NCBI RefSeq assembly: GCF_029867415.1
Contig: NC_081185.1
Location: 82,406,469 to 82,470,468, forward strand
DNA length: 64,000 nt
Direction of reading: 5' to 3'
Origin: Vicia villosa
Taxonomy: Eukaryota; Streptophyta; Magnoliopsida; Fabales; Fabaceae
The position numbers and the translations under genes were made by a program. Positions 3,548-59,857 of the stretch are shown piece after piece (positions within the stretch are counted from its first letter, which is position 1; each line of letters opens with the position of its first letter). The notes beneath the pieces were generated by a model, which searched no databases, was not told the DNA's origin, and saw only the letters and a program-made list of their open reading frames with translations.

Positions 3548-4285
3548 GGTAACTGCACCCCCTGGTTTAACATTTACTTAAATGATTAAAACAAAGAGAA
3601 AACATAAAACAAATAGAGAATACAAATCATTTAAAATTAACCTGTAACCGAATCCGATAGCGAGGAAAAAATATACTACACCTGACAAATGGAATTGACA
3701 GCTTGTCTGGGCTCTTGATTGGTCTGTACTGCTGCCAAATTTTATTTTTGACAAAAATATTTTCTTTTCCATGTTTATATATGCTAATGCAGAATTTTGA
3801 ACTGAACAGAAGATACGATTACGATTACATATGGAAACCAATATGAGAACCGAAATACTTAGACGACAGGGTGAGGATAATGAAAACCGAAAAATGTAGG
3901 GTTTGACATGCAGTGAAGCGTATTAATATGGCTAACAACAAAATCCATTGAATGAATCTTGGGAAGTGGTGGGTGGAGTTGAATATCGTGTGAAGTTCAA
4001 AGAATTTCGGCTGGCTTTTCCATTCCCAAATGCAATTACGTCTATCAAATAAATGCCTGGAATGATTAGCTTAATTAATTATTATGCAATTAAAAAATAT
4101 AAAATAGAACAAATATTTGGGAGCTGCCACGTCACCCGTAATAAATGCCAAATCAACCAGAATTAGTTATTTTGCCAAAAGTCTATTTTACCCATGGAAT
4201 AAGAAAAGTTTCAGTTGTTTAATCAGAGGGCTTATCATGTAAATTCCAAGTACTTTACTTTTTATATATTATAATAGATAATAGA
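3548..4285. other. Unassigned intergenic sequence
   Basis: Mixed-composition DNA without a recognisable coding exon. A minus-strand ORF of 87 codons (3578-3841) has no family I recognise and is not supported by context. It ends in an AT-rich TAATAGA-rich stretch that served as the insertion target of the next element. Confidence 0.5.
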
Positions 4286-4775
4286 TGTAACACCCCATAC
4301 ATAACTGACTAGTATATTATGCATGAAACGTTAAAATTGATATTGAGTACATACAAAAGCTATAGATATAGAAAGATCCAAATAAAATACAACATGAAAT
4401 CCTAATAAGAATTACAGAACATGTGTCTTCAATGGATCTGCACAGCGGAAGATGAGATCTGAAGAGGTCTCCGAGCCATCACCACTTCCAAATCTTCAGT
4501 CTAAACCTGCTACTGACCAAACGCTACTAAACTGCACCTGAAAAAAATATAAGTTGATTGGGGTGAGATTACTAAATCTCAGTGAGTCTCCCTATCTTAC
4601 GGGTTCACTCGGTCCTACAAGGTACATGCAATCAAACGGATCCGCCGTGGATCCGGGGTTTACCTCACGGCCAGGTACAAATACACAGCAAGGACAATAT
4701 CACCATTAGAAGTCCCGTGGCTAACCAATGAGATATCATTAAACACACAAACAACACACAAGTATGATGTTGCTA

Positions 4776-5320
4776 GTACAACCACGTCACCATGATTGTA
4801 CCAGCCCACCGGTGAGGACCTAATGATATTGCCTATGTGGCATCACTAGGGGTGAATAAACAAGTGATCTTACCGACGTGGTATCACCATCTCACCGTAC
4901 CAACATCCGATGTTTTCCTGCTAGAGGAAATGCCTTTTTCAGTACATGATGAGTATACACCAGATCATTCCCATCAAGCACTAGCATTTCCTTGGTAACA
5001 CGATGAGTATACACCAGATCATTCCCATCGAGTACCCACATATCTCATACCGATCAATGAGTATACACCAGATCATTCCCATTGAGAGCGGTGAATATGC
5101 CCAGCTATCCCTTCCCACCAATGAGTATACACCAGATCATTCCCATTGGCGGCCATCCACGGAGTATACACCAGATCATTCCCGCGTGGAGGGGGACATA
5201 AAGATGACGACATACGCAATGAGTATACACCAGATCATTCCCATTGCGTACTCGTTAATGCACAAAATCACAACATACATGATGAGTATACACCAGATCA
5301 CTCCCATCAAGTATGCATAT
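4776..5320. repeat. Array of constant-loop, variable-stem hairpins
   Basis: Seven copies of a 22-nt core starting GAGTATACACC (at 4951, 5005, 5059, 5123, 5162, 5221 and 5284), at irregular spacing. Each core is flanked by arms that pair with each other but differ between copies: CGAT/ATCG, TCAAT/ATTGA, CCAAT/ATTGG, TCCACG/CGTGGA, TACGCAAT/ATTGCGTA. By eye the innermost 5 to 11 positions pair in about 50 of 59 cases. Just upstream lie three further hairpins with 14-nt loops (stems at 4776/4796, 4820/4842 and 4864/4883). The first unit extends into a longer imperfect stem (4925-4933 with 4984-4992). Confidence 0.85.
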
Positions 5321-5757
5321 AATCATATCCGAAAGTTCGACCAGAACAAACATAAATCAAGTGATCATTGTCACACAAATCATCAAGCCATAATAGCATT
5401 TATCATCATAAAGCATTCAAATTTGTCCTACATATTCATACCACTAGTATACAAGTGATAATATAATGCGTATCATGTTCTACAACATGGTTTCACAAGT
5501 CTCGAAGGACAACAGAGGTATTCGGCTCCCTCTACAAGACTGAATTACTCTTGGGGTAAATTTCACAAAATTCCGTTTACCACATTCGTCTGAATGGGTG
5601 TCAGATATATCAAAAAAATAATATTTAGGCACCAAGGCTAATTTTCCTAGATAGTACACTTTATTAGCTTTCCAACGATATAAAGTTTGCGCAATTTCGA
5701 TACCCGAGCCGAAAGTTACAAATTTCTGAAGTTTGCTGATTTTTGCACTTTTGCCCA

Positions 5758-5870
5758 GGGTAACCGGTTACCCAGAAGCCAGTAACCGGTTACTGGCATG
5801 AAAAATGCCCAGAAACGCAAATTTACACAGAGTAACCGGTTACCCAAATGCCAGTAACCGATTACCCTGA
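5758..5870. repeat. Palindromes sharing a TAACCGGTTA core
   Basis: GGGTAACCGGTTACCC (5758-5773) and GCCAGTAACCGGTTACTGGC (5778-5797) are perfect palindromes with a shared core and different outer arms. Two more, slightly decayed copies follow at about 5829-5845 and 5851-5869. This echoes the constant-centre, variable-arm pattern of the upstream array. Confidence 0.85.
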
Positions 5871-6698
5871 AGCAGAATCAATTTTCTGCATTTTTAAGGG
5901 TTCTAAACCAGTCCCAATTGCTCTAAATTGGTTCCCTGCATCACTAACATAATCCCAACGAATTTATAACAGGTACATATTCAGAACCACCAACATGCAA
6001 AGGCTTATAGCAAAAGAACACATTATGTACTAATTAATCAAGCATGCAACAACAATCATCCAAACACTGACACATTCAGGCATGTCTCACTAACCCATTC
6101 AACATGTAATTAATCTTCATTCCTACCCAAGTCCTATCTAATGGAACTCACCTTGCATCAATGGAGCTTTGGATGATGAACATGCTGCAATTGAGCTCCT
6201 AACTTGACCAAAACTACAACCCCAAACTCATCAAACCCGTAGCCCTTTCTTCTTCACATTCAGCATGCATGTCCCAACTTCAAACTCGTTTTTCTCCTTC
6301 AAGACAGAAGCTACAGATGCGAACCATAGGTGCAAATCGAAGAAAAATTTGTTAGCTTTCCAATGGGACCAGAATCGTTACGATCGGAGTTACGAGTTGA
6401 GAGTTATACCTGATTTAGTGGGGGCTGCACCATTGTTGCGAAAATGCACTTGCTTCATGAGTTCTTCTTCCTTTCTTGTTTTCAAATTCTGATTTGCAAG
6501 CCAAACAAGTCCTTAAGTCCATGCAATGGAGTTAAATGTCTCTTGTGCCCTCCAACTAAGTGTTAATTACTATCATGCCACTTGGTTGCCTCCCAACTAA
6601 AACACATGTGATTCTAACTATTCCACTACTCTTAATAATAATCATTCATAGATTAATGTAGGATATTACAATAGATAATAGATAGATATAATAGATTA

Positions 6699-6798
6699 NN
6701 NNNNNNNNNNNNNNNNNNNNNNNNNNNNNNNNNNNNNNNNNNNNNNNNNNNNNNNNNNNNNNNNNNNNNNNNNNNNNNNNNNNNNNNNNNNNNNNNNN
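6699..6798. other. Assembly gap (100 N)
   Basis: Exactly 100 undetermined bases, the usual placeholder for a gap of unknown size. It lies 28 bp after the solo LTR and separates it from the interior of element A, so these two flanks need not be adjacent in the genome. Confidence 0.98.
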
Positions 6799-19430: not shown

Positions 19431-20517
19431 ATCTCAAGGCATCAAGCCTCAGATCCATCAAAGGTAGCAAATTAGGGTTTTGAGCCTATCAAGGACTAAA
19501 ATCAGGGCTTTCATCTAGGAAGACTCACAAAGCTTCAGGACATGATTCAAAGAGCTCAAACATCTTCAAATGATTCCTACATCAATATCAATGAAATATG
19601 TAATTCAATTCATGTTCAACAACTCCCAATTTCATCTGACCCACAATTAGGGTTTTTTTGACCTAATTCAACTAGAGAGTTTACTTTTGATCAGGACATG
19701 GATCCATGGCTCAAATCATAGCTCAAGGACCTATAATGCCTCATTATAATACACTCACAACATTCATTTGAAGAGGATAGCTTGATTAATTTGAAATCTC
19801 CAAGAACACAATTCATTTGGAAAAAGTCAACTGTTGAAGATTACCTTTGACTCTTTGGAATTTTGATCAACTATGGACTTTTGAGGATCAAAATCATCAA
19901 CATATGATTATTGAATTCATTTGATAAAATAAATTCAAGAAAATCAATCAAGAATCAAAAAGTCAACAAAAGTCAAAATTTGGAAATTTCAAAGACTTAG
20001 AATTTTTCCAAGTGTTTGTAAGCATTTTTGTCATATGTTTTTCCCGATTTAAAAGACGATCAGGGTTTTCAAACAACAAAACCTTACATCTTTCAATCAA
20101 AAGTCAATTAAATGTTTATCATAAACAGTAATCAAATCATTGGGTCTCTAATAGAGTGTAAGTCCCATCTCTTTCTTCTTTCGTCCTCTTAAACAAATCA
20201 TCTTTTATCTGATTTTCATAAACAGTTAAAACCATGGGCTTCTATTTGAGTATAAGTCCCAACCCATTTGTTTTTATACATACTTGTCTGTTTCAAAACT
20301 TTGTTTTCTGTACAAAACTCTCTCACCTGTTTTAAATTTCTGGTACTAAGAGGGGCATTATTCCCGGTGAAACTGCTCCTATACCTTTGGGCCCCTCTTC
20401 TGAGGTATAACTTCCAAGCTTTCTCTTCTTCTATTTTAATATGTTTTTCAAAACAAAACTCTGGTACTAAGAGGGGAATTATTCCTGGTGAAACTGCTCT
20501 TAGACCTTTGGTCCCCT

Positions 20518-23500: not shown

Positions 23501-24292
23501 TGTCTCTTGAAATTTGACCAACTTGTACACCTCATATCTCTTTCAATTTTTATCATATGGAGGTGATCCAGGACTTTTTGGAAATCCCAAGATGTCCTAT
23601 TTAAGCCACTTTGGAACACTTTTTCCAGTTGGAGATTTTATTTTGATGATATAGCTCCTGACAAAAAACAGCTTTTTGCGAGCTTCTAGAAGGACCTGTA
23701 ATGTTTTGACTTATATCTCTTAGGCGGAAGCATTTCTTGACCTTGGGCCCAACATCAAAGTTGTAGAGAATTGAATTTCCTTGATAATGAGCTTTGGTTG
23801 GGGAATTTTTGATAAAGCATGAGAGACTTATGGCCAGTCAAAGTACAGTTGCCTTTTGCTTAGAAAACCTAATTTAGCAACTTGGACTTTTGTTGATTTC
23901 TGAGCTTTCCTTGATGAATCATGATCAATACTTGATCAAATGATGAATATTACTTCAAAATAAGGAGGTTGACCAAAAATCAGTAGTTTTGACTGTAATT
24001 TGACCTTAGTTGACTTTTTAGGTCAAACCGATCGACTATTGACTATCTGAGTAATTTGACTGAGTAATCTTGGGAATTGAAGCTTGAATTTTTTCATAGA
24101 AATATTTTGAAACCTAATAAGCCATATGAAATCCATTGGATACCTTTATTCATCAATTTTCTTAAAATAATGCAAAACCCTAGTTCAGGAGGTCTTTGAT
24201 TAGGAGAGTGAGCCTTAGATTAACCCTTAAGCCTTGAACCTCTGTATGAGCTTTGAAGGTGAGATGAGATGGGCAAATTTTGGGGTATGACA
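20518..24292 (-). mobile_element. Ogre-like solo LTR, 3.8 kb
   Basis: Minus-strand LTR starting TGTCATACCCCAAAATTTGCC at 24292 and ending ...CCGTATTACA at 20518. It is flanked by CCCCT (20513-20517) and CCTCT (24293-24297), a target duplication with one mismatch. The host repeat unit reads continuously once it is removed. No primer site or polypurine tract adjoins it, so it is a solo LTR. It shares the GAGTCGCCACCGAC and AGCACCCTTTGTATCC blocks with LTR A. Confidence 0.85.
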
Positions 24293-24653: not shown

Positions 24654-25324
24654 TATAGGACTATGACCTAGGTTTGAGGATTACTTCTCGGTGAAGCCTC
24701 TCATAATTAGATAATATAGATTCTTGCCACAAGATGAATTATTCCCGGTGAAACATCTTGAAACCCTTAGATCAACAATAGGGCACTCCCACCTGAAGAG
24801 GATTAATTCCTGGTGAAACCTCTTACCCCTTTTGCTTAGAGCCAAACTAGGCAAGCCAACATAGCTTTCTCTTGTGATATAACAAGGACCCTCAATGACC
24901 CTCGATTAGACTCCTCTTGGTCTTATAATGCAAGGAACCACGTGCTTCTTATAAGAATTTCACTTCAGCTTCCTCTTGAGCTTGTATACAAGGGCCCTCA
25001 GGCTTCTTAAAAGCATAGGACAGGTCTTTAGTCACCTTTACCCCTGTGAGAATCCAAATATATTTTAAATACACAATCACAATCATTCAAGTGTTCACTC
25101 AATCTTTGTATTGAGTATTTTCCCCTATTGAGTAAAAGACATGGAAAGTCTCAACTCTCAACACCCTAGTCATCCCTAGTGGATTCAACTTCTTTGGAAT
25201 GAGAGACATGGACAGTCTCTATCACCTATCTTTCATCATAAGAGTCAAAAGGATTCAAATCCCTGAATTTCTTTCCCCAGTTGTGTCAACTTCTAGTTTC
25301 TTCCTCAGCAGAAGTCAGCCTTAA

Positions 25325-26023
25325 CCTTGGGCTTTGTACAAGGCAGGAAAACATTCTTCCCAGAGTTAAAAGATTCAAACCCTTGGGTCTTTCCTCGGCC
25401 GGGTAATCCTCAATCTTAGGCTTTGTACAAGACAGAAAAAAACATTACCTTCCAACAGTCAAACAATTCAAATCCCCTGAATTTCTCTCCAAGCAGAGTT
25501 TACCTCAATCTTGGGCTTTGTACAAGACACCAAAACAACTGTCATACAAAAATACAGTCTTCCAAAATCCCTCAAAGAGAGAGCCTCAATCTTGGGCTTT
25601 GCACAAGACACAAATAACCATACAATCTTCCAAATATACTTTCCAGTTGAGTCAGTCTCAATCTTGAACTTTAAATGAGAAGCATTATGTTCCCTAAAAG
25701 AGTCAACCTCAACCATACAGGACAGAAAATAAACCATGCTCATATAATCTCCTCAGAGTTAACCTAAATCATGGACTTTCATGCAAGAAAGAAATCCATT
25801 CTTCAGTAAGTCATCCTTAATTATGGGCTTAGTACATAACACATACAAAACCATTCAGTCAAATAAAAACTCTATAAAGTAATCCTCAGTAGAGTCAGCC
25901 TCAATTCTGGGCTTAGTACAGGACACATAAAGTCCTTTAGTCAAAACAATTCCCGGTGGAAAATCTCCAACAGAGTCAGTCTCAAACTGTCATTTAAGCC
26001 TCAAGCTTAGGCCTTGTGCAAGC
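25325..26023 (+). repeat. 9-nt-loop hairpin array (about 7 copies)
   Basis: Loosely tandem units of about 80-100 bp, each with a loop GGCTT(T/A)GTA. Stems change in step: CCTTG/CAAGG (25325/25339), TCTTG/CAAGA (25509/25523 and 25590/25604), TTATG/CATAA (25821/25835), TTCTG/CAGGA (25905/25919). Two copies have one mismatch (25414 and 26005). The units also share GTCAGCCTCAAT before the stem. Confidence 0.82.
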
Positions 26024-34227: not shown

Positions 34228-34558
34228 TTCTTTTATCCGGAGACAGGATGATTGGAAATCTTCGTTTCGACGCGATCGAAGAGACTTAAATATAAAACAC
34301 AAATTATTTTAACCTAAGATGTAATGCAATGCTAATGAATGCATTTGATGCGATTATAAAATATGGGGAAACATATCATCACCGGGGAGAAGAAAGAACT
34401 CCATTGGGGAAGACAAGTGTCTTGTGGGAATAACTCCACAGTGGAAAACAAGACTTCATTGGGGAAATGAGACTTTGCTGGGAAAAGAAACTTCACCGAG
34501 GACAATATTTTGCACCAGAGAGGTTAAAGCGTCATCTTTCACTAGGGATGAGAGAATA

Positions 34559-34930
34559 CACCAACTTTTACTAGAGGTGAACTACCGACTTTTACTGAAG
34601 GTAGGAAGGAAGAGATCTAAATATCGACTTTTACTGAAGATGTAGATACAAGAGAATTACACCGAATTTTAATGAAGGTGAACTACCAGCTTTTATTGAA
34701 GGTAGGAAAACGATCTAAACATCGACTTTTACTGAAGATATAGATACAACAGAATTACATCGACTTTTACTGAAGGTGAACTACCAGCTTTTACTGAAGG
34801 TAGGAAAACGGTCTAAACATCGACTTTTACAGAAGATGTAGATACAAAAGATGCACCAATTTTTATTGAAGGTGAGCTACCAGCTTTTACTGAAGGTAGG
34901 AAAAGAAAACACTAACTTTTACTGAAGGTG
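34559..34930 (-). repeat. 13-nt-loop hairpin array (12 copies)
   Basis: Twelve units with a loop like GACTTTTACTGAA, almost always 13 nt. Stems alternate but always match: CACC/GGTG (34559/34576), CTACC/GGTAG (34582/34600), CATC/GATG, plus GU or one-mismatch variants. It lies in the 3' UTR of element F, between integrase and polypurine tract. The sequence at 34380-34540 (ACTTCATTGGGGAA-like units) may be a decayed continuation. Confidence 0.85.
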
Positions 34931-38497: not shown

Positions 38498-39213
38498 TGT
38501 CGCACCCCAATTTTTGACCTAGTCTTTTTTAACTATTTCACTATCCATCTGCATCATTTATTAAGTCGGGTTAACTTGTTAAGCATGTCACTTTTTTTTC
38601 GACTTTTTACGGTTGTTTTTCTTCTAGCGTTTTTTTTTATTGAATTAATAGTTAAAATTGATTTTTCTTTTTCTCTTTAATAATCATTGTGAATAATGTT
38701 TATATTTTATTTAATTTTTGCTTCTTTATAATAATTTCCGATTAATTTGGTTTTTCTACTAAATTTCAAGAAATGCATATATATATAATTTTGTGTCTTA
38801 ATTTCTAGTCTTATTTTATTTTTATTTTTTTTTATCTTTTAATTAGAATTAATGTTATTTTTGTTTTTAGTCAAAAATATTTTTTGTTATACAAATAGAT
38901 ATAGAGTTTAAGTTGTTGTCCATACAAAACCCAAGTTACAAGTGTGAAAGCCCATTTTACATTTTTTTTACAATAGACAAGACAAAAAAAAGAGGACTTT
39001 TCATCCCATGCCTACAGTTTGTCGGCTATCTTCTGCTCTGCATTCTGCAACACTCCAAAAAAACTCTGCTTGCCTGCTCCAAAACCAGTCCACAATGGTC
39101 CAAAATTTTCACCAAACTGGTTAAACAAAACCTGCATAGAAAAAGTAACAATTCAGATTACCAGAATTGTTCAAATTTCCTCACACTTTCCCCCCTGAAT
39201 CACTTCTATCCTT

Positions 39214-39223
39214 CTATATAATA
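39214..39223 (+). promoter_or_regulatory. TATA box, 5' LTR
   Basis: CTATATAATAAAGG, about 715 bp into the LTR, followed by an A/C-rich leader. The copy in the 3' LTR is at 47552-47561. Confidence 0.65.
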
Positions 39224-39782
39224 AAGGAGGGACAGCCACAATAAAAGGGGAAGGAAAAGAGAACCTCTGCTCAAATCACCGATAATCCCTTCTCATTCTC
39301 CAAACCAACACTCCAATACCTTCACAAAACCAAAACACACTAGAAAAAAACCTCCCTCAAATTACGAACATCACCCTTTCACCCACAAAACCATCAATAT
39401 CTCTGCCTCACTCAACCCCTGCAACCTTCAAACTACTCACCATTCAAATCCCTCGGCAACCACACACAACACTCATAAACAGCAAAACCCAAGCACAACA
39501 ACACCAACATCCGTCATTCAAAACCGCACCATATACAAACCTCATTCACGCAGACCGTTCAGCAACAAACCGCACATCAATTGTAAACACTTACACCACT
39601 TAAACAAAAACGCAGAACAACAATTTCAGAAGCAACGAAGCAAGAGGAGGCGAAGCAAGGAAGCGGAGAACCAAAGCTTTAACGTACCTTTTTTTTTTAT
39701 CTCTTTCTCTTTGTATCTTAATGTTGTTTCTGATTTAATTTCTGCTATGTAATTGTAACAATCTCCAATCATATTGAAATCT

Positions 39783-39810
39783 GGGGTTGGGGTTATGTTG
39801 GGGTTTAGGG
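39783..39810 (+). other. G-quadruplex motif in LTR
   Basis: Four G-runs (39783-39786, 39789-39792, 39800-39803, 39808-39810) separated by loops of 2, 7 and 4 nt. The same motif is at 48121-48148 in the 3' LTR. G-quadruplexes in plant LTRs have been reported. Confidence 0.8.
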
Positions 39811-40534
39811 TTTCTGTGTGTTTGAATTTGTTGTTGTTTTTGCTTGAATAAACTTGCTGATTGATGCATTTGCGAGAGAGAGAGAGAGAGAGCACCGTCG
39901 AGACAGATAAGATCCAGTTTTGTGTTGTTTGTGTTTCCATCGAGAGGGAGCCAAGAATTTCTGGAAATATTAGAGAGTGAGATGCAATCGCTAGTTTTGT
40001 GAGAGGAAGAGTGTTCTTCTTTTTTGTTTCAGAAGCGTGAGTTTTGACTCATAGGGTTTCGTAACCCGTTTTTGATTAGGTGGGAAACCGGGTTCGTTTT
40101 GACCCGGCTCGGCCCAACGTTTTTTTCTTTCCTCACACCATCCGTTTTTTTTTGGTTCAAGATCTTGGGCCTGTCTACTGTTCAGCGGGTTTCACCCCCT
40201 TCTGGCCCAATAACTTTGTTTTCTACATAAAAAAAAATACACCCCCATGGGCCCATTTGTTCATTCTTTATTTTTATTCTATATATTAATATATCTTATC
40301 TTTTTTTTTATAATAAAAGATGGTCCTTTCTTTTTTGCTTTAAGTTAAAAGCTAAATTTCTTTTCATATAAAATCACAAAAATATATAGTTATTTATTTT
40401 ATTTATTAAATTTTATAAAAAGACAAAAATTATTCTTTAGATGTTCGTTTAGAATTTATCGAAAAAATATTTCAAAATGATACAAACAAAGTTCTTTGCA
40501 ATCGGATCGTGTTTTGAGTTTTAATGGATAAGGA

Positions 40535-40998
40535 GAGTTCGTACGTACTTGTACGATTTGTCCTAAAAGTATTTGGGTGATGGCCGTTAAGCTTTTATTC
40601 GAATTACTTGGATTCCATTAAACGCTCCATAAAACTCGATTTAATTCACCCTTTTTACAAAAACACTTTCTTTTAATCAAATCATTTTATCTATAATGGA
40701 AAGAAGGGTTTGTACGTACTTGTACAAGTTGTTCTTTAAGCTTTTAGACGATGGCCGTTAAGCCTTTGTTTGGATGATTAAACTCCATTAAAGACTTTAT
40801 AAAAATCAATTTAACAAACACTCTTTCAAGTATCTTAAGCGATGGCCGTTAAGCTTTTGTTTAAATACTTGGATCCAATTAAATATCTTTCAACTCATCA
40901 AATCATCTTCATCACCTACGAGGAGGTTGTACGTACTTGTACAATTTTCTCTTTCAAACATTTAGGCGATGGCCGTTAAGCCTTTGTTTAAATGTTTG
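40535..40998 (+). repeat. LTR hairpin array around CGATGGCCGTTAAGC
   Basis: Four units with a constant centre. The fourth has stem CAAACATTTA/TAAATGTTTG (40955-40964 with 40989-40998, loop 24 nt). The third has CAAGTATCTTAA against TTTAAATACTTG (10 of 12 pairs). The first pairs AAGTATT with AATTACTT imperfectly, and the second is decayed. Interspersed are GTACGTACTTGTAC units with stems TCGTAC/GTACGA or TTGTAC/GTACAA. Repeated at 48871-49334. Confidence 0.75.
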
Positions 40999-41690
40999 AT
41001 TTCTCTTAACAAACAAACTTTCAATTCATTCATACCCTTTTACATTCTAAAACACTTTTTTTCATAAAACGAGACACTTATTCAATTTCAATACGAACAT
41101 ACTTCCACATGTGAAGATCTAACATCTTCTACACGAATGCGATGATGGCCAAAATCATGTCTTATCTTGATTTAGTTATCCATTCTTGTAGTGATATCAT
41201 ATCCATGTGCGCGTAGTATTTCCATTTGAAAGCGATCGAGTACCTCTCGCTAAAATCAATCAACAAAACATTTCGTAGTTTTAGCCCGAACTACGATTGC
41301 TCTGACTTTCCCATTGCACTAGGGAATACGTAGGCACAAGATACAAATGTCTTGGCGAGCACAATAATATAAAAAAACTTTTTTTGTTCCTTTCTTCTTT
41401 CCAACCTAATAAATAATGCATGTAGATAATAAGCTAACAATCAATCAAGAATAACTAAATGGGTCCCATCGAATACGATGGAGGTGAGGGGTGCTAATAC
41501 CTTCCCCTTGCTTAACCGACTCCCGAACCTAAATTTGGTTGCGATGACCATCTTATCCTATTCTTTTTTAATCCGTGGGTTTTATCGATATTTTCCCTTT
41601 CCTTTTGGAATAAATAAAGTTCGGTGGCGACTCTGTTGTACTTCGAACGCGTGAAAACGTGTCGAGTCACATTTTTACCGCCACAGAAAG

Positions 41691-41709
41691 TGGCGACTCT
41701 GCTGGGGAC
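41691..41709 (+). other. Primer binding site, TR-GAG element
   Basis: TGGCGACTCTGCTGGGGAC starts five bases after the 5' LTR, the tRNA-Arg-type site shared with elements A, B and D. Confidence 0.88.
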
Positions 41710-42506
41710 TACTTTAGAGAGTCAACCCTAGTTTAGTTTTTTTTGTATTATTGTTAGCTTTATTTATTTGCTTATTTATTTCCTTTATTGTTTGATTTCT
41801 TATTTTATGGTTTGAATATCTTGTTTTTTGGCACTTTGTGGACAAAGCTCTACACCCGAGCTCAAGAAACACATAAGATAAGATGGTGGGTTAGTATTAA
41901 ACTTGCTTGACGTAGTGTCAAGTGGGAGATACTAATACCTCGCCTAGAGTAGGTCCTTTGAGAAGATGTCTTTGGTTAAGTAAGTTATTTACTTGAGCGA
42001 TGATGTTTTCAATTTGGATCGTTAACTCTAGGGACCTTTAGAAAAACCCTTAAACCATGACTTTTTAGGAAATGGTGGTTTCGCACCCAACTTGCGTAAC
42101 GTAACTATTACTGTGGGTAAGTGCGAAAACCACACTCAGAATAGGCTTCATTTGAAAACATGGTTGTGTGGGAAGTTATTTGCTAGATGATCAAGTTTTC
42201 AAAAGTAGCTTGTAACTCTGAGAACCGTGTCTAGAACCTTGTTGGGAAGAACCTTAGAACTATCCTATTGTGTGCCACTTTGTGTTGAGAAATCAGAATA
42301 TTTCTGGTCCATATGATTTGAAATCCATTATATGTTAATCATTCATGGCATTCATTTTTGCATAAAAAATAACAAAAATTGCATGCATCCATATTCATTT
42401 GAGTTGTCAACTCATACCGTCTGTATTCATCTTCAACAGTCTTCTGTTAACCGTCAAGCTGGTTCCTCCACACGATTACGAGACTAGAGCCAACGTTAGA
42501 AGAAGA
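41710..42506 (+). mobile_element. 5' leader of the TR-GAG element
   Basis: About 0.8 kb without a long ORF. The extra ORF1 of Ogre elements is absent here. An in-frame extension upstream of the gag ATG starts with TTG at 42399 and contains HDYETRANVRRR, which is conserved in element D gag. Translation may therefore begin upstream at a non-ATG codon, or this is leader. Confidence 0.6.
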
Positions 42507-44036
42507 ATGGCAGATCAAGAGCAACACAATGCTGAAGTCAGAATGGAGATTGAAGATTTGAAGTCAGGAATGACTAAGCTCACTGAAATGTTGCAAGTTC
42601 TGATTGCTAGAGGAGAACCACCTCAAAGGACTGTCATTCAAGAAATCACCGATGATGTTGAAGACCCTATTCCTGTTCAGAGGCCCGCCACTACTTGGCC
42701 TGAGTTTGGTTTACCTCCAAATTATTCTCCGCCTCATGCCACTGCTGCTATGTTAGGTCAACCTTCACGACCAATGTTCCAAACACCAATCATGACTGAG
42801 TCTCAGCCAATTGTGCACACTGCTGCCCAAACCACTTTTGGAAATCCTCTCTTTGAATACCAGGCTGGAGACCATCAAAGTGAAAGCCAAAAAGAAGCTG
42901 GTGATATTGACGAAGTCAAAGAACAATACCAAGTCCTGGAGAAAAGACTAAGAGCTATGGAAGGTGCTGATTACTTTGGGGTTGCTGCTGAGAACATGTG
43001 CTTAGTTTCTGACTTGGTTATGCCTTCCAAATTCAAGACTCCTGAGTTTGAAAAGTACAAAGGGTACACTTGTCCAAGAAGTCATTTGACCATGTACTAC
43101 CGCAAGATGGCTGCTTATACCAAGAATGACAAACTCCTTATCCACTGTTTTCAAGATAGTCTAACTGGTGCTTCCCTGAAATGGTATATGGGACTTGAAA
43201 AGAGTCGTATCCATTGCTTCCAAGATCTTAATGATGCTTTCATGAAGCAATACAAGTACAATCTAGACATGGCTCCTGATCGCCGTCAATTGCAAAACAT
43301 GTCTCAAAAAGAAAGAGAGTCCTTCAAGGAGTATGCTCAACGTTGGAGAGAGCTAGCTTCTCAAGTGGAACCTCCTTTGGCTGAAAAGGAATTAACTGGA
43401 ATGTTCATGGATACTCTTTCACCCTTCTATTGGGAGAAGATGATTGGAAGTGTGTCCTCCAACTTTACTGACTTGGTGACTATCGGTCAAAGGCTAGAGG
43501 AAGGAATTAAGAAAGGCAAGGTTGTAAATGCTGGTGAGTCCTCTAATGGGGCAAGGAAGTCTTTTGGAAACTTCCATAGGAAAAAGGAAGGAGAAACAAA
43601 TGCTGTGAGTGACGAAGGAAGAAGACCTCGTCAAAGAACTAATAACTATGATCAACCAATTGTGGTTACTGTTGCTCCTGTGACCAAAGCTCCACAAGTT
43701 CAAGCTCCTCAACCTCAGGCTGCCAACCGAGATCAGAATCGTGGTAGGACGACTTATGATCCTATTCCCATGACCTACACTGAGTTATACCCTGCATTGG
43801 TCGCGAAAGGTCTAATTACAACAAGAGCTTTTATTCCTCCGAATCCTCTTCCACCCGGTTTCAGATCCGATCTGCATTGTGAATTTCATCAAGGTGGTGC
43901 TGGCCATAATTTGGAAAGCTGTTTCGCGTTGAAGGCTAGAGTGCAAGAACTGATGAGGGCAAATCTGTTATACTTCAAGGATATTAACCCTAATGTTGTC
44001 AAGAACCCTTTGCCCGAGCATGACAAAAGTGGCTGA
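42507..44036 (+). CDS. gag: Gag polyprotein of the TR-GAG element
   Basis: An intact ORF of 509 codons from the ATG at 42507 (545 from a TTG at 42399) to TGA. Gag forms the cytoplasmic particle and packages element RNA. Residues 1-40 are a coiled coil (MADQEQHNAEVRMEIEDLK), then a proline-rich linker. The retrotransposon gag domain covers about residues 165-330 (FKTPEFEKYKG, GASLKWYMGLE, MSQKERESFKEYAQRWRELA). A basic, glutamine/proline-rich tail ends with a Cys/His segment, CEFHQGGAGHNLESCFALK, characteristic of this lineage. The ORF ends right after KNPLPEHDKSG; in element F the related NNPLPPH runs on toward protease. No stop or frameshift is seen, consistent with a young element. Confidence 0.92.
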   Translation: MADQEQHNAEVRMEIEDLKSGMTKLTEMLQVLIARGEPPQRTVIQEITDDVEDPIPVQRPATTWPEFGLPPNYSPPHATAAMLGQPSRPMFQTPIMTESQPIVHTAAQTTFGNPLFEYQAGDHQSESQKEAGDIDEVKEQYQVLEKRLRAMEGADYFGVAAENMCLVSDLVMPSKFKTPEFEKYKGYTCPRSHLTMYYRKMAAYTKNDKLLIHCFQDSLTGASLKWYMGLEKSRIHCFQDLNDAFMKQYKYNLDMAPDRRQLQNMSQKERESFKEYAQRWRELASQVEPPLAEKELTGMFMDTLSPFYWEKMIGSVSSNFTDLVTIGQRLEEGIKKGKVVNAGESSNGARKSFGNFHRKKEGETNAVSDEGRRPRQRTNNYDQPIVVTVAPVTKAPQVQAPQPQAANRDQNRGRTTYDPIPMTYTELYPALVAKGLITTRAFIPPNPLPPGFRSDLHCEFHQGGAGHNLESCFALKARVQELMRANLLYFKDINPNVVKNPLPEHDKSG

Positions 44037-45835
44037 AGATTGAGAATGGCAACCTACTTCCCTAAAGCCTAGTGTTTCAGGCAGGACAGCTCCTCCTCGT
44101 CCCTGATTAGTCACTAGGCCTAGTTTCCTTCTGTTTGCAATTTCCTTATTTTATCTTGTGTCCTGCATTTGAATTATGTTTGTTCTTAATTGTTTAATGT
44201 TAATGAAATGAGCATTGCGTGATTTTGATTCAATTCAATCCATTGTGCTTATCTTTACGCTTTATCTTTCAAAAAAAAAAAAAACAAAATATATATCTCT
44301 TGTTCACTCCTTTTATCAAAACTTGTTGTTTTATGCAAAGATTGGAGGGAGGATGATGAAAACAAATACCATAAATTGTTGAATTATATGCTTTCAAATA
44401 AAACTTTGCTGATGATGTAAAGGCATTGTTTCAATCCCCAAACACTGGAGAAATAAGGAAGTTAATCCCTAGTCAACCCCTTTGAGCTTGCGAAGTTAGA
44501 GTTTCTTTGTAAACGAAAAAACCCGCAATTTTAACCTGGGGCAGGGTAGTTCTCAGTTAGTATGTTTATGCATTCAAGGAAATCATTAAGTACACCTTTC
44601 AATAAGGGTTTCAATCAAAGGTGACCAAGATGGTTATCATTAATCATTCTCAAGGCAGTCATTATCTTTCTAATACAAAGAAAATGTTTCAAAAAGCCCG
44701 CTAAGTCAAACCTATGAAGGAGACTTAGGCAAAACTGAGGCATCCCGCTGACTGTGATCTCAAAAAGAAATAGTTTAGGCAAAAGTTAGGGATATACAAA
44801 AAAGAGAAGTCAATAAATTCCTTGAAACAACAATAAAACATTGTGACTAATAAATGGAAGAGGTGACTGCTATCTCAAAGATTCCCTTGGTCCTTAAACC
44901 GTTATCATTATCATAGGTGCAATTCCAAATTCTCTTGGAGCCTGAATGCATAGTTTGAATTAACTGAGCGTAGGATTGGAAGATCATCACGAAGAATAGG
45001 GTGGGTACAAATATACTTTGAGCCTATATCCTTTGTTTCTGAAACCGTGAACCAAGCCACGTTACAGCCTTTAAAAGACCTAATTGAAGCAAGGTTTATT
45101 TTGAAAGCATACTACAACAAGGTTGCGTTAACCTGACTCCTAAAGATCTTTGCAAATATTTTTGTTTTACCATACCTTTTATTCATCACTTCGAGTGTCT
45201 ATGCCATCGTGTGTGGGATTTTGATTCATTTTCTTTACATCAATAACATCATTCCAATAATGATTTTGATTTCAAAATATGCTTTGAACATTGCATTAAG
45301 GTTACCATTCTTGAACGAACATTTTATTTGCAAGTAAGCACTCATCTTTTAGGAAGTTCAAACAGTTAAGAAACTTGATCAGTGATCCTATCAGGGGCAC
45401 GTTACTTCAAGATCATGTTTTTTTTAAAAGTTATATTGGGGGCAAGTATTACCAACATTCATTTCAAAGAACTGAAGCAACGATCAGATAACAATCAGCC
45501 AGTCAGGGGCAGTCCTCTTCAGCAATCCCCAAGCAATTTATCAGTCCTTCTCAAAGGGATCATCAGTGTGACATAACAAAGTTGGCAATGTTCTCGTGTT
45601 GAGGAATCAGAGTTTCAATCTTCCCTCACAAAAGAGTCTACCTCAGTCGTCATAACCAATAACATTACATTAATCATTCGCATATCATGCATAGAAAATT
45701 CATTATCATGCATCGAAACAACATTCATACTCATTTGCATTCTTTCAAGGTTCCGTTGTTATTAATCATACCTTGTTATCAAAGCCCAACTTACTTGGCG
45801 CCTACCAAAGCAGTTGTTTGTCTTTCTTTTTTCCC
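44037..45835 (+). mobile_element. Non-coding region replacing pol
   Basis: No protease, RT, RNase H or integrase motif on either strand. It contains an A-rich run at 44271-44284 and unannotated short ORFs. Together with the array that follows, it stands where about 5 kb of pol would be in an autonomous relative. Confidence 0.75.
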
Positions 45836-46635
45836 TCCAATGCTACTATTGGATTTGTATTTTGTTTCTTTTCGATGCTACTATTGAATGTCTCATTGTT
45901 TCTCTTTGTCCAAAGCTAATCTTGGATTTGTATTTGTTTCTCTCTGTCTAAAGCTACTGTTGGACATGATGTTTTTCACCTTTTATCCGAAGCTACTGTT
46001 GGATATCACAATCCTTAGTAAAGAGTTGTTCAAAGCTACTGTTGAATGATCTTTATATCTTTGAGCCGGAATACCATTCTTTTCTCATCCAAAGCCACTC
46101 TTGGATGTTCTTGAGTTTGTTTTCCCATCCAATGCTACTATTGGATGTTTGCTCGTATTTTCCAAAATTGATATCCATTTCATCTATTGCTCCTCAGGAT
46201 GACTCTGATATATTTTCTGGTTCAGGTTTCCTTTTTGCATTCAAAGCCACTGTTGAATCTCTCTGGTTTCCGTATCATCCAAAGCTACTGTTGGATTGTC
46301 CCCCATGTTTTTCAGAGTTTGGATTCCATTCGTTCAAAGCTACTCTTGGACGTCTCTGCCATATCTCCGAGTTTGTAGGTCTCCTCTTGCATTCAAAGCC
46401 ACTGTTGAGTCCTGTTGGTTTCCTTCCATCCGAAGCTACTGTTGGATGTCTCCAATGTTTTCCCAGAGTTTGGAATATTTTCAGATACATTCAAAGCCAC
46501 TCTTGAATGTCTTTGCTTTTTGGTGTCGTCTAAAGCCACTCTTAGACGTTCCTACCCAAAGTATTGTTTCAGATTCATTCAAAGCTACTCTTGAATGTCT
46601 CTGACGATTTCCGCCGTCTAAAGCTACTCTTAGAC
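45836..46635 (+). repeat. 8-nt-loop hairpin array (17 copies)
   Basis: Seventeen units of stem, 8-nt loop (AGC(T/C)ACT(G/C) or TGCTACTA) and stem, about 30-60 bp apart. Stems change in step: TCCAA/TTGGA, TTCAA/TTGAA, TCTAA/TTAGA. Many extend further: CATCCAA/TTGGATG (46126/46141), ACATTCAA/TTGAATGT (46487/46503), CGTCTAA/TTAGACG (46527/46542). It lies just upstream of the polypurine tract, the same place as the array of element F. Confidence 0.9.
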
Positions 46636-46820
46636 ATTCCTACTATCTTCCCACAGAGTTTTGAGTCCGTCTCATATCATATTACATAAAAAAAAAAAAA
46701 ACATCCATGCATTGCACTTCATTTGCATAAGGACAAAAATTCGGGTCTTTTATATTTAATTACCCTTCGCCATTGATACCACGAAGACGGAAGTCATTCA
46801 TGCCATCTGGCTCGAGATAA

Positions 46821-46835
46821 TTAAATAGGGGCATC
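46821..46835 (+). other. Polypurine tract, TR-GAG element
   Basis: TTAAATAGGGGCATC directly before the 3' LTR, identical to the tract of element F. Confidence 0.9.
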
Positions 46836-49800
46836 TGTCGCACCCCAATTTTTGACCTAGTCTTTTTTAACTATTTCACTATCCATCTGCATCATTTATT
46901 AAGTCGGGTTAACTTGTTAAGCATGTCACTTTTTTTTCGACTTTTTACGGTTGTTTTTCTTCTAGCGTTTTTTTTTATTGAATTAATAGTTAAAATTGAT
47001 TTTTCTTTTTCTCTTTAATAATCATTGTGAATAATGTTTATATTTTATTTAATTTTTGCTTCTTTATAATAATTTCCGATTAATTTGGTTTTTCTACTAA
47101 ATTTCAAGAAATGCATATATATATAATTTTGTGTCTTAATTTCTAGTCTTATTTTATTTTTATTTTTTTTTATCTTTTAATTAGAATTAATGTTATTTTT
47201 GTTTTTAGTCAAAAATATTTTTTGTTATACAAATAGATATAGAGTTTAAGTTGTTGTCCATACAAAACCCAAGTTACAAGTGTGAAAGCCCATTTTACAT
47301 TTTTTTTACAATAGACAAGACAAAAAAAAGAGGACTTTTCATCCCATGCCTACAGTTTGTCGGCTATCTTCTGCTCTGCATTCTGCAACACTCCAAAAAA
47401 ACTCTGCTTGCCTGCTCCAAAACCAGTCCACAATGGTCCAAAATTTTCACCAAACTGGTTAAACAAAACCTGCATAGAAAAAGTAACAATTCAGATTACC
47501 AGAATTGTTCAAATTTCCTCACACTTTCCCCCCTGAATCACTTCTATCCTTCTATATAATAAAGGAGGGACAGCCACAATAAAAGGGGAAGGAAAAGAGA
47601 ACCTCTGCTCAAATCACCGATAATCCCTTCTCATTCTCCAAACCAACACTCCAATACCTTCACAAAACCAAAACACACTAGAAAAAAACCTCCCTCAAAT
47701 TACGAACATCACCCTTTCACCCACAAAACCATCAATATCTCTGCCTCACTCAACCCCTGCAACCTTCAAACTACTCACCATTCAAATCCCTCGGCAACCA
47801 CACACAACACTCATAAACAGCAAAACCCAAGCACAACAACACCAACATCCGTCATTCAAAACCGCACCATATACAAACCTCATTCACGCAGACCGTTCAG
47901 CAACAAACCGCACATCAATTGTAAACACTTACACCACTTAAACAAAAACGCAGAACAACAATTTCAGAAGCAACGAAGCAAGAGGAGGCGAAGCAAGGAA
48001 GCGGAGAACCAAAGCTTTAACGTACCTTTTTTTTTTATCTCTTTCTCTTTGTATCTTAATGTTGTTTCTGATTTAATTTCTGCTATGTAATTGTAACAAT
48101 CTCCAATCATATTGAAATCTGGGGTTGGGGTTATGTTGGGGTTTAGGGTTTCTGTGTGTTTGAATTTGTTGTTGTTTTTGCTTGAATAAACTTGCTGATT
48201 GATGCATTTGCGAGAGAGAGAGAGAGAGCACCGTCGAGACAGATAAGATCCAGTTTTGTGTTGTTTGTGTTTCCATCGAGAGGGAGCCAAGAATTTCTGG
48301 AAATATTAGAGAGTGAGATGCAATCGCTAGTTTTGTGAGAGGAAGAGTGTTCTTCTTTTTTGTTTCAGAAGCGTGAGTTTTGACTCATAGGGTTTCGTAA
48401 CCCGTTTTTGATTAGGTGGGAAACCGGGTTCGTTTTGACCCGGCTCGGCCCAACGTTTTTTTCTTTCCTCACACCATCCGTTTTTTTTTGGTTCAAGATC
48501 TTGGGCCTGTCTACTGTTCAGCGGGTTTCACCCCCTTCTGGCCCAATAACTTTGTTTTCTACATAAAAAAAAATACACCCCCATGGGCCCATTTGTTCAT
48601 TCTTTATTTTTATTCTATATATTAATATATCTTATCTTTTTTTTTATAATAGAAGATGGTCCTTTCTTTTTTGCTTTAAGTTAAAAGCTAAATTTCTTTT
48701 CATATAAAATCACAAAAATATATAGTTATTTATTTTATTTATTAAATTTTATAAAAAGACAAAAATTATTCTTTAGATGTTCGTTTAGAATTTATCGAAA
48801 AAATATTTCAAAATGATACAAACAAAGTTCTTTGCAATCGGATCGTGTTTTGAGTTTTAATGGATAAGGAGAGTTCGTACGTACTTGTACGATTTGTCCT
48901 AAAAGTATTTGGGTGATGGCCGTTAAGCTTTTATTCGAATTACTTGGATTCCATTAAACGCTCCATAAAACTCGATTTAATTCACCCTTTTTACAAAAAC
49001 ACTTTCTTTTAATCAAATCATTTTATCTATAATGGAAAGAAGGGTTTGTACGTACTTGTACAAGTTGTTCTTTAAGCTTTTAGACGATGGCCGTTAAGCC
49101 TTTGTTTGGATGATTAAACTCCATTAAAGACTTTATAAAAATCAATTTAACAAACACTCTTTCAAGTATCTTAAGCGATGGCCGTTAAGCTTTTGTTTAA
49201 ATACTTGGATCCAATTAAATATCTTTCAACTCATCAAATCATCTTCATCACCTACGAGGAGGTTGTACGTACTTGTACAATTTTCTCTTTCAAACATTTA
49301 GGCGATGGCCGTTAAGCCTTTGTTTAAATGTTTGATTTCTCTTAACAAACAAACTTTCAATTCATTCATACCCTTTTACATTCTAAAACACTTTTTTTCA
49401 TAAAACGAGACACTTATTCAATTTCAATACGAACATACTTCCACATGTGAAGATCTAACATCTTCTACACGAATGCGATGATGGCCAAAATCATGTCTTA
49501 TCTTGATTTAGTTATCCATTCTTGTAGTGATATCATATCCATGTGCGCGTAGTATTTCCATTTGAAAGCGATCGAGTACCTCTCGCTAAAATCAATCAAC
49601 AAAACATTTCGTAGTTTTAGCCCGAACTACGATTGCTCTGACTTTCCCATTGCACTAGGGAATACGTAGGCACAAGATACAAATGTCTTGGCGAGCACAA
49701 TAATATAAAAAAACTTTTTTTGTTCCTTTCTTCTTTCCAACCTAATAAATAATGCATGTAGATAATAAGCTAACAATCAATCAAGAATAACTAAATGGGT

Positions 49801-50021
49801 CCCATCGAATACGATGGAGGTGAGGGGTGCTAATACCTTCCCCTTGCTTAACCGACTCCCGAACCTAAATTTGGTTGCGATGACCATCTTATCCTATTCT
49901 TTTTTAATCCGTGGGTTTTATCGATATTTTCCCTTTCCTTTTGGAATAAATAAAGTTCGGTGGCGACTCTGTTGTACTTCGAACGCGTGAAAACGTGTCG
50001 AGTCACATTTTTACCGCCACA
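46836..50021 (+). mobile_element. 3' LTR of the TR-GAG element
   Basis: Copy of 38498-41685, two bases shorter because of one GA unit fewer (48212-48228), with one substitution at 48652. It is followed by GCATC and then element F reverse transcriptase on the minus strand. Confidence 0.95.
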
Positions 50022-57279: not shown

Positions 57280-58583
57280 TTATTGTCTCTTCCGCTTCTC
57301 ACCATGTTGCTTAAGTAATGCTTTCTGGCGACGAATCTGATCATCCTTCTCCATCAACCAACCATCCTGAAGGTAAAGTGTGTCATCCCTTTCTCTCAGC
57401 TGCTTCTTCAACTCTTCTTTCTCAACCTCTGAAACATGGAACTTCTTCTCCCAAGTATCTCTTTCTAACTTCATCCTAGCCTTAAGCTCTTGGTACTCCT
57501 CTCTATTCTCAATGGGAACAATGGAAGATGAAGGTGAAGCTATAGGTGGTAAGGAATCCTCGAGTAAGTATGGCATCTTAAGCTCATGAGCTCTAGCTTG
57601 AACCCATTCGATACAAGCTTCAAGAGGAATACATTGCTTCTTTCCTAACCAATTTTACTTTTCCTATCAATATGGTGCTAAGCATACACGAACTAGTTCT
57701 TCATATCCAAATGCCCATCCTTATTATGATAAAAGATTCCCGACACGAGAACACTAGTAGGTTAACCTCTCATCAGATACCTCAACTGTCGTCTAGTAAG
57801 ACTGAGGTTGTATGTAATTCCTCCTTGTATACCAAGAAGAGGTATATTGGAGAACTCTTCACAACTATTAATAATCACACTAGTGTCATAAGCAGGGTTG
57901 TACAAATTTATGTTAGCCTAAGCGAGGGGCATGAGTCTCTGAGACAATCTGAGCTTATCAGGGTTATCTTTGAAGCTTCTAGTTTGAGGCAACTACAAAA
58001 TAAACCAATTGTAAAGCAAAGGTGCACAGCAGTTGATACATCCATCTCTCTTCAAAGTCCTATAATGAATGAAATGGTATATGTCTCCAAGTAGAGTAGG
58101 CACGAGGTTACCAATCATGAATATCCGAATAGCATTAACATCAACAAAATTGTTAATGTTTGGAAAAAGCATCAGACCATAGATGAGTAGAGCGAGAGTA
58201 GCCTCTAAAGCATCCATATTTCCCTTACTAGCCAGCATAGAAGCCTTCCCTATCAAGAACTTAGAATTAAATCCCATAAAACCCCCCTTGTCAGTGAAAT
58301 TAGCATTCACATATAATATTTTCAAATAAAGAAGCTCTGTTATAACCTTATGCCCAGGAACTTTCTCTGAACCACTGAAAGGTATCTTGTCTGTAACCGG
58401 CAAGCCTATCCAATAAGAATACTCCTCTAAAGTAGGAACAAGCTGATAATCAGGGAAGGTAAAATAATGATATACCTGATCGTAAAATTGGACAAGAGTC
58501 TCAAGAATTCCCTCTTCAACCTTGGTTTTCATAATGAATAACAACCTCCCATAACGACTCTTGAAGTTGTCAGGAATAGATAC
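57280..58583 (-). pseudogene. Ogre ORF1 relic, element F
   Basis: Minus strand: KSRYGRLLFIMKTKVEEGIL, VQFYDQVYHYFTFPDYQL, PTLEEYSYWIGLPV, DVNAIRIFMIGNLVPTLLGD (ORF 58544-57993), a broken middle with a NIPLLGIQGGITYN block, and a C-terminal coiled coil (57576-57280, KKQLRERDDTLYLQDGWLME). The parallel ORF1 at 27571-28824 has the same motif order. Function is unknown; similarity to plant mobile-domain proteins is inferred. The 5' end is cut by the copia LTR at 58584, with GATAC (58579-58583) as the likely target. Confidence 0.78.
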
Positions 58584-59857
58584 TGTTAGAACATAGTTTG
58601 GTTCTAATTATATTTTAGTGTTTTGATGATAACAAGCAAACAAATTTTGTATAAAGCAAACATGGTACTCTAATCATATGATTCTAATTTCAGAAGATGT
58701 AACAGTACTAACAATCAGAACTTGAAGAATTAGAACTTAAAGCTAAAGAAACACAATGCAAGTTATAAAGGAACTCTTGATACCGCATGCTGCAAACATA
58801 TCTACAACAGAAGCTGAAGAACAAGGCTGAACAGAAGATTATAAGGAATGATTCAAATTAACACCGCTGAAAGCAACTTCTGATACCGCACGCTATAAAC
58901 ATATCTACAACAGAAGCTGAAGAATAAGGCTGAACAGAAGATTATAAGGAATGATTCAAATTAACACCATTGAAAGCAACTTCTAATACCGCACGCTGTA
59001 AACATATCTACAACTGAAGTTGAAGAACAAAGACTGAACAGAAGTTTATGCATATTGATTCAAATTAAACCGTTGAAGACATAATCATTAGCAAAACGGC
59101 TGCAACACTCCAAAAGCGTAATTTCCAAGGTTGATTGAAGAAACTATCCACATGCAAATTCTTGGAGAAAGCAAAAGCAAAGATAACACGCAAACCATTT
59201 AATGCTAAATGCATGCTTTGGAGATAACGGTCAAAAATTCTGAAGCTATATATACTCATGATCGTTTGAAGAAAAAAGACACAACACAACGAGCTTAATA
59301 GAAGAAAACAAGAAAGAACACACAAGAACGCTGCAACTCTAAATCATCAAGTGTGAAGAAGAACTCTCTGAAGCTAAAGTCTCTTATTCATATTCTGAGT
59401 TCATTATTCTGTACTTAATCTTAGTGAAATATCACAGTGGTGATTACAGCTTTCTAGAAGCAAAACTATAGACTATCAACAGAATTTATGTGGTAACTAA
59501 GTCCTTGAGAGACCAGTTGGGTCAGAAGTCTCAAGAAGTCTATGACTATTTGAGTCTTAGAAGATTGGTTAGTCACAAGCAGTTGGCTTGTGCGGGATCA
59601 TTAGTCACCAGAAGTTTGGCTCGTGCATTGTATTGTGAGTCACAGCAGTTGGTCGTGCAAGTGTAATCAGGTTCTAATTATAGTGGATTAAGACCACTAT
59701 TGAGAGAGGAAAATCACCTTGTTGAGGGTGGACTGGAGGTAGTCTTATTGAGAAGGTGAACTAAGATAAAAATAACTGCGTTCTGATTATCTTTCCTTCA
59801 TAAAGTTTTTAAAACCCACTTATTCAACCCCCCTTCTAAGTGTTTTCTCAACCTTCA
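58584..59857 (+). mobile_element. 5' LTR of a SIRE-like copia element
   Basis: A 1274-bp LTR from TGTTAGAACATAGTTTGG to ...CAACCTTCA, followed by a primer site. It has three tandem 103-bp units (58781-59089) and a TATATATA box near 59246. It inserted into ORF1 of element F. Confidence 0.88.
58781..59089 (+). repeat. Three 103-bp tandem repeats in the copia LTR
   Basis: Units begin TACCGCA(T/C)GCT at 58781, 58884 and 58987, exactly 103 bp apart, with a few differences and the third the most diverged. Confidence 0.9.

Follow-up and report, generated by a model that had tools for sequence, protein, structure and literature searches.

Hypervariable tandem repeats in the 3′ untranslated regions (UTRs) of Tat, Ogre, and Retand LTR retrotransposons were reportedly described by Macas in 2009. 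Repeats of this kind, which in Tat-lineage elements form short, family-specific arrays between pol and the 3′ LTR, are treated in passages of four papers (PMC7004042, PMC11963269, PMC3305785, and PMC6317226), one of which holds that Tat/Ogre repeat arrays seed legume satellite DNA (PMC7004042) and another of which states, in the passages concerned, that the origin and function of such arrays are unknown (PMC11963269). These passages describe plain repeats, and the main texts of the four papers use neither "hairpin" nor "stem-loop". In contrast, the unit of the array analyzed here (array A), from a 64,000-nucleotide stretch of Vicia villosa DNA (the window, whose positions are used throughout), consists of a constant core between paired, nonidentical arms. 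Array A also differs in placement, as it lies inside an LTR, at about positions 1351 to 1902 of the LTR's minus strand when side hairpins are included. A further array in the window (array C) is placed as Tat/Ogre 3′ UTR repeats are, with gag at 42366 to 44036, the array extending to 46636, and the 3′ LTR starting at 46836. In our search of the open-licence literature, no title or abstract opening dealt with arrays of constant-loop hairpins in such elements.

A multicopy RNA hairpin element would have its functional counterpart in the hairpins that act in packaging, dimerization, and export of retroviral RNA. Stem-loops are also described in the long R regions of retroviral LTRs (passages of PMC3601003). 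Retrozymes resemble array A in that structured RNA is encoded in the LTRs of plant nonautonomous elements, but the passages of PMC4918200 describe hammerhead ribozymes in LTRs of about 300 to 400 bp with 4-bp target site duplications (TSDs). We rejected a retrozyme identity for the LTR that holds array A, which has no Rfam ribozyme, a length of 2,385 bp, and a 5-bp TSD. The Conserved Hairpin Site of fungal GalEa Copia elements is, like the array A unit, a hairpin found in a retroelement and containing a conserved A/A mismatch, but the passages of PMC5445492 describe a single site that lies just past the 5′ LTR and replaces the primer binding site; its arms are conserved and its loop is less so, which is opposite to the arrangement in array A. 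Finally, the hairpins attributed to template switching in PMC8794818 are like the arrays described below in that the arms stay complementary while several adjacent pairs change together; the abstract of that paper concerns RNA genes and DNA replication and mentions neither constant-core arrays nor a G.U bias on one strand.

Array A and the LTR that holds it

The initial annotation placed the array in a solo LTR, and the termini and flanks of the interval from 4286 to 6670 (2,385 bp) support this. The interval starts with TGTAACACCC and ends with GGATATTACA, giving TG..CA ends, and is flanked on both sides by the 5-bp sequence ATAGA (4281 to 4285 and 6671 to 6675), a candidate TSD in surroundings that are rich in ATAGAT. 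Since no internal element region adjoins it, a solo LTR is the natural reading, and the interval lacks a primer site, a polypurine tract, and any coding region. Its assignment to a plant LTR retrotransposon, probably as a solo LTR, is supported by the TG..CA ends and the ATAGA on either side. A run of N starts at 6699, just past the LTR. Elsewhere inside the LTR, at 5760 to 5871, repeated GTAACCGGTTAC palindromes form its strongest local fold, with z scores of −7.2 on the minus strand and −5.8 on the plus strand for the scan window that starts at 5761.

Array A contains seven copies of a 22-nt core, six of them identical and the seventh carrying a single T>C change, and no copy was found in any of 100 shuffles. 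The hairpins around these cores, placed on the minus strand, lie at 4940 to 4983 (c1; core at 4951 to 4972), 4993 to 5038 (c2; 5005 to 5026), 5049 to 5092 (c3; 5059 to 5080), 5115 to 5152 (c4; 5123 to 5144), 5154 to 5192 (c5; 5162 to 5183), 5207 to 5255 (c6; 5221 to 5242), and 5273 to 5316 (c7; 5284 to 5305), with core-to-core spacings of 54, 54, 64, 39, 59, and 63 nt. Hairpin c6 is the stablest of the seven; the interval given for c5 is that of its main stem, which has one bulged base, and the fold of c5 in isolation (5148 to 5197) reaches further and would overlap c4. The arms had been described as complementary to one another but different from copy to copy, and we confirmed them as quoted (for example, CCAAT/ATTGG and TCCACG/CGTGGA). 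The span given for the array, 4776 to 5320, holds for the cores but not for the portion from 4776 to 4940, which has no core and instead contains three other hairpins predicted on the minus strand. One of these, H1 (4772 to 4805), has a 15-bp stem and a GUGA tetraloop, and its region (4768 to 4810) folds at −23.7 kcal/mol on the minus strand versus −9.3 kcal/mol on the plus strand; the other two, H2 (4819 to 4850) and H3 (4863 to 4888), share one plan and differ by one A-U/G-C double change. A plain tandem repeat, or minisatellite, was ruled out for array A by its irregular spacing, differing arms, and constant core. The core was also rejected as a coding repeat, as the spacings of 64 and 59 are not multiples of three and a 151-amino-acid open reading frame (ORF) has no Pfam match in a search up to an E value of 1.

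The arm pairing described in the initial annotation was borne out when right arms were swapped among the seven copies and contiguous pairs were summed, with a one-base slip allowed. The sum for the copies' own arms was 36, compared to a mean of 16.6 for exchanged arms, and 2 of 5,040 permutations reached 36; c1 and c7 score equally when they carry each other's arms. At random sites elsewhere in this LTR, away from the array, a pairing run of at least 4 was found in 1.35% of 20,000 draws. In a minus-strand alignment of the seven copies, 85.7% of 105 cells were paired and the covariation score was 0.308, neither of which was equaled in 500 shuffles, and both sides had changed in 7 of the 15 pairs, a count matched by 2 of 500 shuffles. 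Further pair types were no more numerous in this alignment than in the shuffled sets (252 of 500). Sliding the register by 1 to 3 columns reduced the paired fraction from 85.7% to between 27.6% and 53.3%. The arms of c5 pair with a one-base slip, and when this copy was dropped, 90.0% of cells were paired in the remaining six, leaving the verdict unchanged. As would be seen in a structured RNA element, covariation in array A lies above both the arm-exchange and the register controls.

Strand, fold, and related copies of array A

The initial annotation also described the loop as a constant 22-nt sequence, which stands for the plus strand as read but not for the minus strand, where the loop itself pairs. 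There, the core folds into GGG/CUC with one G.U pair, one A.A mismatch, AUG/UAU, and an 8-nt loop, AUCUGGUG, with the variable stem outside. All copies fold in this way on the minus strand, and all seven fold more deeply there than on the plus strand, with energies of −13.1 to −19.8 kcal/mol versus −4.2 to −12.7 kcal/mol. Over a 570-nt region, the predicted energy was −206 kcal/mol on the minus strand (z of −4.26, 0 of 100 shuffles) and −133.1 kcal/mol on the plus strand (z of −1.15, 14 of 100 shuffles). When the pair list was counted on the plus strand, 69.5% of cells were paired versus 85.7% on the minus strand, a comparison that favors the minus strand because the list was derived from the minus-strand fold. 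The 9-nt arms alone have three minus-wobble and no plus-wobble cells, which is too few to decide, and the substitution in the c7 core turns an A-U pair into G.U on the minus strand. In 160-nt sliding windows over the 64 kb, array A was no outlier, with minus-strand z scores from +1.0 to −2.8 for starts at 4721 to 5281, and the sliding window that starts at 5201 folds better on the plus strand (−3.9 versus −2.2 on the minus strand). From the predicted fold, we infer that the minus strand is the transcript strand of this LTR.

Four ORFs in the protein database (P0002 to P0005) traverse array A in other copies of the LTR. We compared their residues with the codons in the window and the implied bases with the predicted pairs, taking the pairing partner to be unchanged; because these relatives are read from proteins, silent changes go unseen. 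Six core changes were found in P0002 to P0005 and in c7 of the window: five fall within the 8-nt terminal loop, the sixth keeps its pair, and no change breaks one. If the changes are independent, five or more of the six would fall within 8 of 22 bases with a probability of 0.027, although two like changes in P0005 (c4 and c5) may be one event; copy 4 of P0005 is, in our reading, a base change plus a 2-nt loss. Arm changes at paired positions number four. Pairing survives three of them, two of which give G.U (5090 in P0004 and 5149 in P0005) and one of which turns G.U into G-C (4983 in P0002), while the change at 4994 in P0002 disrupts pairing in the outer 3-bp helix of c2. In P0003, one unit has been lost, leaving the c6 left arm fused to the c7 right arm. 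Separately, the first 60 residues of P0126, a hypothetical protein of Vicia faba (RYX36_012059), resemble three core-like units with different flanks; with an E value of 1.4 in the database search and of 2e−07 in pairwise comparison, this possible relative is a lead only.

Neither the bacterial and archaeal genome contigs nor the viral contigs contained the core pattern, the LTR sequence had no match in plasmids or phages, and two element proteins had no relatives in viral contigs. No Rfam family was found at its gathering score, with one chance-level match (E value of 3.5) elsewhere in the LTR, and six literal core strings were absent from the open-licence papers searched.

Other arrays in the window

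Array C (45834 to 46636, plus strand) contains 17 hairpins with the loop [AT]GCYAHTN and covarying stems, placed between gag and the 3′ LTR of an element at 38498 to 50021 that has a GCATC TSD. The two LTRs of this element (38498 to 41685 and 46836 to 50021) are 99.9% alike over 3,195 aligned bases, and the array, within the 3′ UTR, lies 200 to 1,000 nt before the 3′ LTR of this young element, which we take to be of the Ogre/Tat lineage. A gag ORF on the plus strand (42366 to 44036) matches Pfam PF03732, and no pol ORF was seen in the element. Among the 120 of 610 matches listed for this ORF, the best from a named source is from Vicia villosa (74% over 91% of the query), and Lathyrus and Trifolium come next; on these matches, the window is taken to be legume nuclear DNA from the tribe Fabeae. 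The first LTR is followed by a primer-site-like stretch (TGGCGACTCTGCTGGGGA, presumably the primer site), and a polypurine tract precedes the second LTR; together with gag on the plus strand, these features make plus the sense strand of the element.

In array C, own arms form 101 Watson-Crick pairs out of 119, compared to 84.1 with exchanged arms (0 of 20,000 permutations), and 93.3% of cells are paired in the sense versus 85.7% in the antisense. The 85 cells of the inner five pairs, read in the sense, comprise 79 Watson-Crick pairs, 6 G.U pairs, and no A.C; with exchanged arms, the mean was 5.2 A.C, and zero A.C was never obtained in 20,000 permutations. Over seven pairs, there were 10 sense wobbles to 1 antisense wobble, plus 7 other mismatches. 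The array has eight distinct arm pairs, and the states C-G, U.G, and U-A coexist at one pair. This pairing pattern is what an RNA helix that changes through G.U intermediates would show. Fold energy was about equal on the two strands (z of −3.30 and −3.02, 20 shuffles each). Array C supports the hairpin design more strongly than array A does.

Two weaker arrays also appear to be placed between a coding region and a 3′ LTR. Array B (34556 to 34930, minus strand) has 12 units with a GACTTTTACTGAA-like loop and the arms CACC/GGTG, CTACC/GGTAG, and ACATC/GATGT with variants, arranged in a 98-nt higher-order repeat. Upstream of it are an RNase H ORF on the minus strand and a weak match to integrase (E value of 0.0017, under the Pfam cutoff), and downstream of it lies a putative minus-strand LTR start near 34210, assigned from likeness to the junction of the array C element. 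Arm permutation gave 10 of 20,000, a count that overstates the evidence because the units are higher-order copies. Its RNA fold was significant on neither strand, and with three antisense (plus) wobbles to one sense (minus) wobble, array B speaks against a single RNA-sense rule. Array D (25325 to 26019, minus strand) precedes a minus-strand LTR start near 24292 and has seven units with a GGCTTTGTA-like loop and short stems, the count being that of units that match one search expression, with more degenerate units there left uncounted. It has some arm covariation (27 of 20,000 permutations) and wobbles of 2 to 1 in favor of the minus strand, and its single hairpins fold weakly.

A scan of the window for like loops between unlike arms returned eight families. 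All four that exceed two members (with 6, 4, 4, and 4) fall within arrays A, B, and C, while the remaining four are pairs of the kind also found in shuffles, which gave a mean of 4.2 families; the largest family in 30 shuffles had three members (in 8 of the 30) and was never larger. An earlier scan of the window gave 30 pairs versus 4 to 9 in five shuffles, while a scan for 6-mer arm pairing was discarded as too noisy, the shuffles scoring higher. Outside the arrays, the loop stretch TTCCYGGTGAAA is common to three hairpins (three of its six occurrences), at 20482 and 24742 to 24830, that have unlike arms of 6 to 7 bp (CTAAGAG/CTCTTAG, CAAGATG/CATCTTG, and AAGAGG/CCTCTT). The pattern TTCCYGGTGAA, which may mark a further family, has such arms at three of its six occurrences (20482, 24742, and 24807), compared to 190 of 3,000 random places, with loop lengths of 23, 17, and 17. 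Three 103-nt repeats at 58.8 to 59.1 kb have no shared hairpin, and a minus-strand ORF at 57993 to 58607 has a strong DUF7745 match (E value of 3.4e−74).

Origin and possible role of the hairpin arrays

The structural feature in array A is real and well supported, and its RNA nature is likely. The initial annotation had offered selection on a folded strand and template switching as explanations, and the evidence leans to selection at the RNA level, while c6 and c7 fit template switching. We lean this way because the minus-strand fold is better, because core changes in the relatives lie in the terminal loop or keep the pair, and because the inner stem of array C, read in the sense, has G.U but no A.C. 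It is, in our judgment, modestly probable that array A consists of minus-strand RNA hairpins in an element transcript whose stems are kept by selection.

A mutational origin is a serious rival, although it seems to us rather unlikely to be the explanation. On this view, template switching in the course of reverse transcription or replication would rewrite one arm from its partner, leaving the two complementary whatever their sequence, while the core spreads by unequal exchange. The mechanism is described for RNA hairpins in PMC8794818, and abnormal strand transfers are proposed as the source of Ogre 3′ UTR repeats in passages of PMC7004042. Between c6 and c7, the outer arms (ACATAC../GTA) are common and the change is clustered, with three adjacent pairs differing on both sides; the fused arms left by the unit loss in P0003 point the same way, and array B, with its weak fold and wrong-strand wobbles, fits template switching better than RNA selection. 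However, template switching predicts no strand bias among mismatches, whereas array C has the 6-to-0 bias of G.U over A.C in its inner pairs, which would have a probability of 0.016 to 0.033 if cells were independent, as those of repeated units are not; sense-to-antisense wobbles are 2 to 1 in array D and 1 to 3 in array B. By itself, template switching also leaves unexplained a near-constant core with varying arms and core changes that spare the stem.

We consider improbable a function at the DNA level, by which cruciforms or single-strand hairpins in LTR DNA or cDNA would serve a protein in integration, silencing, or replication: the stems would pair in DNA too, and the arrays lie in or beside LTRs, but the fold bias of array A and the G.U/A.C bias of array C point to RNA or to one DNA strand. 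Least probable of all, and very unlikely, is the view that short arms beside a tandem core look complementary through chance and the selection of examples. The window scans do yield unconvincing two-member families (four of the eight), families of three do arise in shuffles, and the 6-mer scan did no better than its shuffles, but the observed families of 6, 4, 4, and 4 exceed anything seen in shuffles, and the permutation tests also argue against chance. This reading is disfavored for arrays A and C and could still be right for arrays B and D.

Under selection at the RNA level, stem pairing in the element RNA would be kept while the sequence drifts, partly through G.U intermediates, and array units would multiply and be lost by exchange through the common core. 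Template switching could supply multipair changes such as those between c6 and c7, acting together with selection. The side-by-side layout suggests, tentatively, that the copies might form a multivalent binding site for Gag, in packaging, or for a host RNA-binding factor; such a site would explain why the loop and the copy number are family specific while the hairpin plan is kept.

Array A may be a variant of the known plant LTR-element repeat arrays, and there is a chance that such arrays form a general, overlooked class. On a broader conjecture, which we think possible but doubtful, the "hypervariable tandem repeats" of plant Ty3/gypsy elements would in many families be RNA hairpin arrays and not passive satellite seeds. 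Each array would display a family-specific loop repeatedly on stems that may vary provided that they pair, and would serve as a multivalent cis-acting RNA in the life cycle of the element; such arrays would have escaped notice because the programs that find repeats score sequence, not pairing. What gives rise to compensatory change in RNA stems is called a long-standing question in PMC8794818. The plan of a constant loop and paired stems, seen in two arrays, points to a testable class of function, RNA structure, and the strand rule, by which G.U is kept and A.C is avoided in the sense, can be checked across many genomic copies and could aid in telling whether compensatory stem change stems from selection or from template switching.
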